DNA of 64,000 nucleotides from Geobacillus kaustophilus (GTDB lineage: Bacteria > Bacillota > Bacilli > Bacillales > Anoxybacillaceae), in contig NZ_JYBP01000003.1 in assembly GCF_000948285.1 (NCBI RefSeq), positions 124,001 through 188,000 on the forward strand, read 5' to 3'. Shown piece by piece: positions 7,557 through 10,953 of this stretch. The notes under the pieces are model-generated. The model searched no databases, had not been told where the DNA came from, and worked only from the letters and a program-made list of their open reading frames with translations. A program made the translations under genes and the position numbers. Numbering within the stretch: the first letter of the stretch is position 1; every line of letters begins with the position of its first letter.

Positions 7557-8831
7557 TTGAAACTCGGCGACCGCTTGAAATTCGCCCGCTTGATGAAAGG
7601 CCTGACCCAAGAAGAAACGGCTGAAGGCATTATTTCGGTTTCTTATTTATCGAAAATTGAGAACAACCAAGTCATCCCGAGCCAAGAGGTGCTCGAATGG
7701 CTGTTTCGGCGGCTGGACATCCGGCCCGGCGGAAATGAAACAACGCCTTCATGGTTCGAGTGGGTGATGTCGTGGTACAGGGCGATGATGAGCCGTGATG
7801 CGCCTGCCGCGCAGGAACTGTATGAAACGGTCAAAGAACGATGCGAGCGGTCCGGAGATGCCGAAGCCATGATTTATTTTCAGCTGATGCGAATCCGGTA
7901 TTGGCTGCTTCTTGGTGACAAAAAGGGGGCGGAAACGGCGGCGCAAAGCGTGCGGGACTGGTATGGGGCGTTGAGTGATGACATGCGCTACTATTATTGG
8001 AAATTTTTTGGTCTTTTATATTATTGCCAAGAAAAGTACGATGACGCCTTGCATTGTTATCAAAAGGCAGAACAGCTGCTGAAGGGAGAATGGAAAATGA
8101 GCGGGGAGGAGGCCGATTTGGCTTACTTGTCGGCCCTTGCTTCCAGCCGTCTGTGGAAATGGTTCCAATGCCTTCATTACGCCGAACGGGCCCTGGCGCT
8201 CAGCCAGGCGGAATACGACTTGCGAAGGAGCGCCGAATGCCATGTGCTGTTGGCGATTTGCTACCGGCGCTGCGGGGAGATCGACAAAGCAGTCGAACAT
8301 TGCCTGGCGGCGCAAAAAGCGGCGGGTATGGCGAATGATCGGCGCCTTCTTGGCATTGTCGAGCACAATCTCGGCCACTTGAAGGGGATGAAACGCCAAT
8401 ACCGCGAGGCGGTGCAACATTACGAGAACAGTTTGATCTATAAAGAGGACGCCCCGTTGGATGCGCGGCTCATTACGCTTTTGTCGCTCGTGCGCATGCA
8501 TTGTGAGGCCAAGCATTATCGCAAAGCGTGGATGATCGTCGAAGAAGGGTGGAAACAGCTCGAACAAGCCCCTAACGGAGCGGTGGAGCATTATGAGTAT
8601 TATTTGCATTTTTCCATTTACCGGCTGCTTTTGAGCGAAGAAGACGAACCGTTGGAGCGGCTGCTCAAACAGGAGGCGATTCCATACTTCCAGAAAAAGA
8701 AGGAATATGACGACGCTTCTTTGTACGCCGAATATTTGGCCGATTGTTATATGCGGAGGCGCCAGCACAAGCTGGCGGCCCAATATTACCAGTTAAGCTG
8801 CGCTCTCTTGCGGAAGAAAACCGGCGTTTGA
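7557..8831 (+). CDS. nprA: NprA/NprR-type activator (HTH + TPR, RRNPP family)
   Basis: A 424-residue transcription regulator. Residues 1-60 are an Xre-type helix-turn-helix (LKFARLMKGLTQEETAEGI...SYLSKIE). The rest is a string of TPR helices, for example DALHCYQKAEQLL and EAVQHYENSLIYKED. Length and layout match NprR (about 423 residues) and the NprA activator described upstream of the neutral protease gene of B. stearothermophilus. The start is TTG at 7557 with AAGGAGGAG nine bases upstream. It is followed after 16 bases by a small secreted-peptide gene and then by the protease gene, the layout of an RRNPP receptor, its signal and its target. In NprR the TPR domain binds the imported peptide; here that is inference. 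Confidence 0.88.
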   Translation: MKLGDRLKFARLMKGLTQEETAEGIISVSYLSKIENNQVIPSQEVLEWLFRRLDIRPGGNETTPSWFEWVMSWYRAMMSRDAPAAQELYETVKERCERSGDAEAMIYFQLMRIRYWLLLGDKKGAETAAQSVRDWYGALSDDMRYYYWKFFGLLYYCQEKYDDALHCYQKAEQLLKGEWKMSGEEADLAYLSALASSRLWKWFQCLHYAERALALSQAEYDLRRSAECHVLLAICYRRCGEIDKAVEHCLAAQKAAGMANDRRLLGIVEHNLGHLKGMKRQYREAVQHYENSLIYKEDAPLDARLITLLSLVRMHCEAKHYRKAWMIVEEGWKQLEQAPNGAVEHYEYYLHFSIYRLLLSEEDEPLERLLKQEAIPYFQKKKEYDDASLYAEYLADCYMRRRQHKLAAQYYQLSCALLRKKTGV

Positions 8832-8847
8832 AAGGAGGTGAAGCTAG

Positions 8848-8976
8848 GTGAAAAAGCGGGTCATTGTGATCGTCGCTCTCGCCGTCCTTGGTCTCGCTTC
8901 AGCCTTTGGCCAAGGCATCGGGGTGAAAGAAGCGGCTAAAGACGAACATCCGCCGCCGACGGTGATTGCTCGATAA
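8848..8976 (+). CDS. Putative NprX-like signalling peptide precursor (42 aa)
   Basis: A 42-codon frame starting GTG at 8848, with AAGGAGG nine bases upstream and the SD overlapping the nprA stop region. The product starts MKKR, has a hydrophobic run (VIVIVALAVLGLASAF) like a secretion signal, then a short polar tail KEAAKDEHPPPTVIAR. This is the architecture of Phr/NprX pro-peptides: signal sequence plus a C-terminal segment cut to a 5-8 residue pheromone. The tail segment PPPTVIA aligns in pattern with B. cereus NprX SKPDIVG (Pro at 3, then D/T, I/V, V/I, G/A). A strong terminator follows. It is too short for routine gene callers. The mature form is a guess. Confidence 0.75.
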   Translation: MKKRVIVIVALAVLGLASAFGQGIGVKEAAKDEHPPPTVIAR

Positions 8977-8979
8977 AAG

Positions 8980-9016
8980 GAGCGTCGGATAAGGCGGCCT
9001 TATCGCTCTTTTTCTC
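8980..9016 (+). terminator. Terminator after the nprA-peptide unit
   Basis: GAGCG-(TCGG bulge)-ATAAGG pairs with CCTTAT-CGCTC around a CGG loop, followed by TTTTTCTCTTCTT. It starts three bases after the peptide stop and ends the nprA-peptide operon. Confidence 0.85.
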
Positions 9017-9033
9017 TTCTTCAAACTGATTCG

Positions 9034-9079
9034 TCCCCTGCTTTCGTGACGATAGGCGAAAGCGGGGGGCGGTTTTTTG
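9034..9079 (+). terminator. Second hairpin with T-tract before nprM
   Basis: CCCCTGCTTTCG pairs with CGAAAGCGGGG (one bulge) and a run of six Ts follows at 9073-9078. Two terminators in tandem should keep nprM expression strictly dependent on its own promoter. Confidence 0.7.
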
Positions 9080-9198
9080 TTTCGGATGCTTGGATGGCGG
9101 AAAGTTGCTGTTTATCGATTATCTTAATGATTATGTTTTGCTCTGGATGTTTTGTCACAGGCGGAAAGCCGCAAAGAGAGAAAAAAGGAAAACCGGTT

Positions 9199-9210
9199 GC
9201 CTGATCAGGC
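9199..9210. promoter_or_regulatory. Perfect 12-bp palindrome, candidate NprA operator
   Basis: GCCTGATCAGGC is self-complementary over 12 bases. Its centre is about 57 bases upstream of the start site expected from the -10 at 9250, a usual place for an activator to contact polymerase. It is the most symmetrical element in the nprM upstream region. Assignment to NprA is inference. Confidence 0.45.
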
Positions 9211-9249
9211 CGTATTCCGCCCGATCATTTTCCCAATACCGAATCAAAA

Positions 9250-9255
9250 TATATT
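9250..9255 (+). promoter_or_regulatory. Candidate nprM -10 element
   Basis: TATATT lies in a very A+T-rich stretch 58 bases before the start codon. The bases 17 upstream (ATTTTC) are a poor -35, which fits a promoter that needs an activator. Confidence 0.4.
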
Positions 9256-9312
9256 GTAATAAAATTTTTATTAGAATAAATAATTTGAAAGTACAAGAAA
9301 GGGGTAAAGGGA

Positions 9313-10953
9313 ATGAACAGACGGGCGATGCTTGGTGCGATTGGGTTGGCGTTTGGATTGATGGCTTGGCCGCTCGGCGCTTCGGCGAAGGAAAGATCAA
9401 TGGTGTGGAACGAACAGTGGAAGACGCCATCGTTCGTTTCTGGTTCGCTGTTGACAGGCGAGGATGCTCCGGAAGAATTGGTTTACCGTTATCTTGATCA
9501 AGAGAAGAATACATTCCGACTTGGTGGACAAGCCCGCGAACGGCTGGGCTTGATTGGCAAACAAATGGATGAACTCGGCCATACGGTCATGCGTTTTGAA
9601 CAGCGCTATCACGGCATCCCCGTGTATGGCGCCGTGCTCGTTGCCCATGTCAACGATGGCGAATTGTCCTCTTTGTCGGGTACGCTCATTCCGGATTTGG
9701 ACAAGCGAGGGGTGAAAAAAGAAAAAACGATTGCCGTTCAAGAAGCGGAAGCCATCGCAGAACAAGATGTGATCGAGACGATCACGAAAGAACGCCCGAA
9801 GAAGGAAGACGGGAAACCGACGCGGCTGATCATTTATCCGAGCGGAGAGGAGGCGCGCCTTGCTTATGAGGTCAATGTCCGCTTTTTAACCCCTGTTCCG
9901 GGCAATTGGATGTATATCATCGATGCGGGAAGCGGCGCTGTATTGAATAAATGGAATCAAATGGATGCGGCCAAGCCGGGAACCGGTCCGACAATCGCCG
10001 GCACGTCGACCGTCGGCGTCGGCCGCGGTGTGTTGGGCGATCAAAAATATATTAACACCACCTACTCTTCATATTACGGCTATTACTATTTGCAGGACAA
10101 CACGCGCGGCAGCGGCATTTTTACGTACGATGGACGCAACCGCACGACGCTGCCTGGCAGCCTGTGGGCTGACATTGACAACCAATTTTTCGCCAGCTAT
10201 GACGCGGCGGCTGTGGACGCCCATTATTACGCCGGCGTCGTGTATGACTACTACAAAAATGTGCACGGCCGGCTGAGCTATGACGGCAGCAACGCCGCCA
10301 TCCGTTCGACCGTCCATTACGGACGCGGCTACAACAACGCGTTTTGGAACGGTTCGCAAATGGTGTACGGCGATGGAGACGGCCAGACGTTTTTGCCGTT
10401 TTCCGGAGGCATTGATGTCGTCGCTCATGAGTTGACCCACGCCGTGACCGATTATACCGCCGGGCTTGTTTACCAAAATGAATCCGGCGCCATCAATGAA
10501 GCGATGTCCGACATTTTCGGCACGCTCGTGGAGTTTTACGCCAACCGCAATCCGGACTGGGAGATCGGCGAAGACATTTACACGCCGGGCATTGCCGGCG
10601 ATGCGCTCCGCTCGATGTCCGATCCAGCGAAATACGGCGATCCGGATCATTACTCGAAACGATACATCGGCACACAAGATAACGGCGGCGTCCATACGAA
10701 CAGCGGCATCATCAATAAAGCGGCGTATTTGCTCAGCCAAGGGGGCGTCCATTACGGAGTAAGCGTCACCGGCATCGGCCGCGACAAAATGGGGAAAATT
10801 TTCTACCGGGCACTCGTCTACTATTTGACGCCGACCTCCAACTTCAGCCAGCTGCGCGCCGCCTGCGTGCAAGCGGCTGCTGACTTGTACGGGTCGGCGA
10901 GCCAAGAAGTGAATTCGGTGAAACAGGCGTTCAATGCCGTAGGAGTTTATTAA
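9313..10953 (+). CDS. nprM: Thermolysin-like neutral protease (bacillolysin, M4)
   Basis: A 546-residue secreted zinc metalloprotease: signal peptide ([19 protein letters not shown]...GASA), pro-region to about residue 227, mature enzyme from [10 protein letters not shown] (residue 228, 319 residues). The zinc site HELTH begins at residue 372, with the third ligand in GAINEAMSD. The calcium-site and S1' regions of thermolysin are present ([10 protein letters not shown]). It has the three-residue insertion SYYGYYYL that separates the stearothermophilus enzymes from thermolysin itself. The start has AAAGGGGTAAAGGGA upstream. NprA and the peptide gene lie just upstream, so it is the expected target of that switch. 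The symbol nprM, nprS or nprT varies by strain. Confidence 0.95.

Follow-up and report, generated by a model that had tools for sequence, protein, structure and literature searches.

A conserved box at the −35 position of the nprM promoter as the likely operator of the quorum-sensing activator NprA in Geobacillus kaustophilus

The promoter of the neutral protease gene nprM of Geobacillus kaustophilus carries a conserved box, ATTTTCCCAATAC, at the place where a −35 element should be. We consider it likely, from sequence comparisons, that NprA, once activated by its peptide, binds here and activates RNA polymerase with sigma-A at a promoter devoid of a −35 element. The box is conserved, stands at a rigid distance from the −10 hexamer, and is associated with NprA-like regulators; a pre-peptide gene is adjacent. 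The DNA analyzed is a stretch of 64,000 nucleotides (the window). A first-pass annotation had placed a candidate NprA operator upstream of nprM, at a 12-bp palindrome. That idea was partly supported: it was right in kind and pointed at the wrong element, as an operator within the interval that it delimited is probable, the element being the box and not the palindrome. The features of the region are listed in the table.

Table. Features of the nprA-nprM region, with positions in the window
Feature	Position	Strand	Basis or remark
nprA, HTH-TPR quorum-sensing activator, 424 aa, TTG start	7557..8831	+	Pfam HTH_3 and TPR
nprX-like signal pre-peptide gene, 42 aa, GTG start, C-terminal HPPPTVIAR	8848..8976	+	sequence
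Intrinsic terminator-like hairpin between nprX and the nprM promoter	9031..9072	+	another at 8988-9004
GCCTGATCAGGC, 12-bp palindrome, probably incidental	9199..9210	.	perfect self-complementarity
ATTTTCCCAATAC, proposed NprA box (operator), overlaps the −35 position	9227..9239	+	conservation, spacing
TACCGA, −35 position for a 17-nt spacer, without −35 consensus	9237..9242	+	sequence
TAAAAT, −10 hexamer, exactly 20 nt past the box	9260..9265	+	conserved spacing
nprM/nprT, secreted thermolysin-type M4 neutral protease, 546 aa	9313..10953	+	Pfam M4, FTP, PepSY

The genes of the locus are, in order, leuS (identified from its translation only), a rhodanese-domain gene, nprA, the 42-codon pre-peptide gene, two hairpin regions that resemble terminators, the nprM promoter, nprM and a cse60 homologue, with 336 bp between nprX and nprM. 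NprA combines an N-terminal helix-turn-helix domain of the kind found in the RRNPP/NprR subfamily (PF01381, E = 3e-10, residues 7 to 55) with a TPR domain of the NprR/Rap type, whose best PDB match is NprR (4gpk; phmmer E = 4e-15, residues 72 to 418), followed by Rap proteins and PlcR. The nprX-like pre-peptide has a basic-hydrophobic N-terminus, which predicts export, and a PPPTVIA tail that is kept in 11/11 loci of the window's genus; it has no match in Pfam or NCBIfam. NprM matches thermolysin (PDB 5a3y) with an E value of 7e-265. Judging from these sequences, the nprA-nprX-nprM locus is an NprR-NprX-like unit. As in the NprR-NprX system of the Bacillus cereus group, the gene of an HTH-TPR regulator and then that of a small secreted peptide lie upstream of the activated protease gene, but the match of NprA to NprR, over the TPR part, is distant. 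The same gene pair is said to have been described by Nishiya and Imanaka in 1990 as NprA and nprS/nprM of Bacillus stearothermophilus, NprA being the original activator.

Matches to nprA were found in 19 of 41 genomes of the family, and matches to nprM likewise in 19 of 41; the relatives known by name are G. jurassicus, G. thermocatenulatus and G. proteiniphilus. The locus has decayed in several genomes. In G020 and G036 nprM is reduced to fragments while nprA is retained, in G038 a transposase-like ORF interrupts nprA, and in G019 nprA is split into two frames. In the nprX gene of G039 (L018) the presumed signal region is duplicated in tandem, as AKDEHPPPTIII followed by AAKDEHPPATII.

We compared 13 nprM promoters, that of the window and those of 12 relatives, drawn from 22 M4 matches in the 41 genomes; three fragments (G020, G029, G036) and six paralogs of at most 55% identity were left out of this count and examined separately. 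ATTTTCCCAATAC is exact in 11 of the 13 promoters, from four genera, with one mismatch in G039 and two in G015. In all 13, TAAAAT or TAATAT begins exactly 20 nt past the box. Invariant positions number 10 of the 13 in the box over the whole set; in the seven divergent promoters they number 12 of 13, together with five of the six in the −10 hexamer. Thus, in the nprM promoters, the box is kept together with the regulator and at a constant distance from the −10, even where the flanks have diverged. The recognition helix GIISVSYLSKIENN of NprA is identical in the 14 orthologs compared, of 15 loci. The −35 region had been described as poor in the first-pass annotation, and it is: TACCGA stands 17 nt before TAAAAT, and no plus-strand promoter of the sigma-70 type was called in 8820-9320. 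An activator-type promoter without a −35 element beside the gene of an NprA-type regulator is supported. Farther upstream, in the window and at the corresponding place in the relatives, a short purine-rich patch, GAAAAAAGGAA (9180-9190, some 37 to 47 bp before the box), is more conserved than the sequence on either side.

The palindrome GCCTGATCAGGC is indeed perfectly self-complementary, as had been noted. It had been placed about 57 bases before the start of nprM; that distance fits a transcription start that we infer near 9267-9272 and does not fit the ATG, which lies 103 bp past the end of the palindrome. On this scale the palindrome would act from about −73 to −62, and the box from about −45 to −33. 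That NprA uses the palindrome as its operator appears highly improbable. The perfect dyad occurs as a single exact copy in the whole 3.68-Mb genome, and four close relatives have an imperfect form, with one or two mismatches, at the same place. However, none of the 12 relatives keeps the perfect palindrome in its nprM promoter, and eight have nothing like it at that position, their best match, with three to five mismatches, lying elsewhere. Seven of these eight carry an NprA ortholog with an identical recognition helix, whereas in the eighth, G015, the sole NprA relative is distant and has a different helix. In the seven divergent promoters one of the 12 palindrome columns is invariant, and mean identity (0.57) is at the background of the flanks (0.50 to 0.63); over all 13 promoters no column is invariant. 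Lack of conservation had been named with the original idea as grounds to refute it, and this is what the comparison of upstream regions shows. The window contains 37 perfect 12-bp palindromes, against 16.9 expected from composition, or about one per 1.7 kb, so the chance of finding one in the nprX-nprM gap is about 0.2 by our own arithmetic. Being unconserved, at background and one of many of its kind, GCCTGATCAGGC was rejected as the NprA operator; it is probably incidental and distinct from the operator.

The palindrome and the box might also be used together. One half of an NprR-like tetramer would then occupy the box as the main site, and the other half the palindrome, a second site peculiar to the strain. 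This reading overlaps the preferred one, so that our confidences in the two are not exclusive. PMC4970707 describes NprR with bound peptide as a tetramer that has two sites for DNA binding, and the palindrome starts 28 bp, nearly three helical turns, upstream of the box. Nevertheless, it bears no resemblance to the box, and it is absent at that position in eight of the 12 relatives; joint use appears highly improbable.

ATTTTCCCAATAC has a single exact copy in the window. A search of the genome for box, spacing and −10 with up to three mismatches gave five matches, of which the nprM site is exact and the other four have three mismatches; a backwards control gave three. As the nprM site is the sole exact full site, NprA seems to serve nprM alone in this strain. 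Without spacing and −10, the 12-mer TTTTCCCAATAC is unspecific, being present in 35 of the 41 family genomes, including genera without nprA, and 14 of the 16 copies inspected lie inside some ORF.

In four genomes of three other genera (G032, G036, G037 and G039), the box, with one or two mismatches, is also found 172 to 177 bp before nprA itself, at a 19-nt spacing from TATAAT or TACAAT. This position suggests that nprA is autoregulated in these genomes, which we regard as likely from the sequence. In the window's genus, no comparable box occurs within 350 bp upstream of nprA in the loci compared. A TTTTCTCAATA form surrounds a distant NprA relative in genus g3, where it also precedes two M4 paralogs with one or two mismatches. 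Three M4 paralogs in NprA-bearing genomes (one in G018, two in G037) have no box upstream.

A wider search covered an order that we take, in part from the names of plasmid matches, to be Bacillales. NprA-like regulators (E ≤ 1e-20) were found in 194 of 397 genomes. The first 24 order-level loci listed (L102-L125) contain 23 copies of ATTTTCYCAATAY with at most one mismatch, whereas 40 shuffled motifs had a median of 2 copies and no more than 11. In 40 regulator loci, hand-picked for diversity from the NprA-like matches listed, 30 boxes with at most one mismatch were found, spread over 22 loci; 12 boxes, from 10 loci, are exact. The other 18 loci have no box within one mismatch. In 20 dinucleotide shuffles of these loci there were 2 to 11 boxes with at most one mismatch and 0 or 1 exact, and 30 shuffled motifs gave 1 to 15 copies versus 30 for the real box. 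The two tests are not independent, since 13 of the 40 loci represent the same genes as in the 24-locus test. TANNNT stands at offset 20 in 16 of the 30 boxes around regulators, and at no other offset from 0 to 35 in more than four. In a pooled profile of 61 sites, where selection imposed the −10 positions and the free positions alone are informative, T is found at position 30 in 52 and G at position 31 in 39; the window has T then A.

Genome-wide, TTTTCCCAATA-N21-TANNNT gave 266 matches in 153 of the 397 genomes, and a reversed control 89 in 77 (hand tally). An NprA-like gene is commoner in site-positive genomes (99/153 vs 95/244, p = 6.6e-7; control p = 0.80), with the reservation that the genomes are related and the p-values overstate independence. 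The other 54 site-positive genomes have no NprA-like match at 1e-20; 12 loci read from two site-positive genera negative for NprA matches have an HTH-TPR regulator beside the site. In 13 of 25 site loci read, neither a regulator nor a gene for a secreted protein was seen beside the site. The full unit is absent from the five plasmid-borne relatives examined of nine records (Mesobacillus, Cytobacillus twice, Priestia and Virgibacillus). A query with a fragment of NprR had no match in the 397 and 299 genomes of the order, an empty answer that is uninformative, and the box comparison covers loci outside the B. cereus group. We think it more probable than not that NprR-type quorum-sensing regulators across Bacillales have TTTTCCCAATA-N21-TANNNT, in many cases with an extended −10, as their shared unit of operator and promoter. 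In that reading, one DNA site would serve the regulators, whose recognition helix S-x-[SPA]-[YH]-L-S-K-I-E is near-invariant, while their peptides would differ.

We scanned hand-chosen proteins with Pfam (24, one twice). Of 20 encoded after a box, several of which are mutual orthologs, 11 are subtilases and one each is a lipase, an HTH-TPR regulator and a glycerol-3-phosphate antiterminator; one has a weak sub-threshold match, and five have no family. One further scanned protein after a box is a subtilase. The box might instead be bound by another factor that happens to control genes of secreted enzymes, for example an alternative sigma factor or a global regulator of proteases, and lie close to NprA-like genes only because these lie close to protease genes. 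Binding by another factor would agree with a spacing between box and −10 as rigid as in a sigma-factor promoter, and with the distances within the order, where 67 of the 81 sites compared, of those listed, do not lie within 10 kb of any of the 51 regulators compared, likewise of those listed. However, the −10 is of the ordinary sigma-A type, and the box also precedes regulator genes. It surrounds the regulator of L196, where the two small neighbour proteins scanned have no Pfam family, and follows regulator-peptide pairs in all nine loci of genus g47. In G034, where no NprA-like match was found, the M4 paralog lacks a box even at two mismatches. Overall, we judge it unlikely that another factor accounts for the box. 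L196 is one of three loci of genus f22 g30 (with L204 and L213) where a single HTH-TPR-type regulator is surrounded by two or three boxes that face small-protein genes.

The nine loci of genus f39 g47 (L227-L230, L232-L235 and L242) consist of an HTH-TPR-type regulator gene, the type being Pfam-checked in L228 only, and an ORF for a 50- to 62-aa pre-peptide, followed by the box. Past the box they show a short presumed transcript with an invariant segment, GAAATGACCCAGCAATACCCTCTCA, and a terminator-like hairpin, about 45 to 105 nt from the box start. The segment was found in 10 of 299 genomes of the order, all of genus g47. Four of these loci gave no Rfam family, with two chance-level matches far below the gathering scores. 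By its sequence the transcript is a candidate quorum-sensing small RNA, and its C-rich segment could pair with ribosome-binding sites.

RRNPP activators with an operator are known as a kind. In a 2014 review (PMC4147580), NprR-NprX of Bacillus thuringiensis is reported to bind across the −35 of nprA, which fits a box at the −35 place, and the exact DNA target of NprR is called undetermined. According to the same review, the PlcR box likewise serves an RRNPP activator at poor −35 promoters, with targets that encode exported proteins, and, unlike the NprA box, is a palindrome whose distance from the start varies. A PlcR-type box was tried at the nprM promoter and rejected: TATGNANNNNTNCATA is absent within two mismatches from 8980-9312, and the window has 16 such matches vs 8.5 expected. 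The form searched has T where PMC4147580 prints A. The ComR box, another RRNPP operator, is a 20-bp pseudo-palindrome with the dyad GACA/TGTC (PMC5131891), whereas the NprA box has no clear dyad. The portions of PMC4147580, PMC4970707, PMC3325205, PMC11343458, PMC7425212, PMC7756075, PMC5641580, PMC4873490, PMC10075063 and PMC5131891 consulted name no NprR box, nor does the NprR part consulted of a 2026 review (PMC13001229); PMC9765709 yielded no passage on the terms sought. Among the open-access papers listed for the exact box string, the matches are unrelated by title. As far as our searches show, the box is not described as a site of the NprR branch in the open-access literature.

In its location over the −35 and its constant distance from a −10 of the sigma-A type, the box resembles a class II activator site. 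We infer binding by NprA, dependence on the peptide and activation at this site, and propose the following sequence of events. The NprX peptide would be secreted, processed and re-imported. Peptide-loaded NprA would then bind ATTTTCCCAATAC through its N-terminal HTH where the −35 should be and, at the fixed 20-nt distance from the −10, recruit sigma-A RNA polymerase for transcription of nprM, making the nprM promoter a class II activator promoter. Among the peptide quorum sensors of Gram-positive bacteria, the RRNPP regulators form a major family. A short box with fixed spacing would let quorum-sensing regulons be predicted, and the promoters of thermostable proteases be tuned, from sequence. 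If the common unit is real, whole quorum-sensing regulons of secreted proteases and lipases, joined by a small RNA in one genus, could be recognized directly in genomes.
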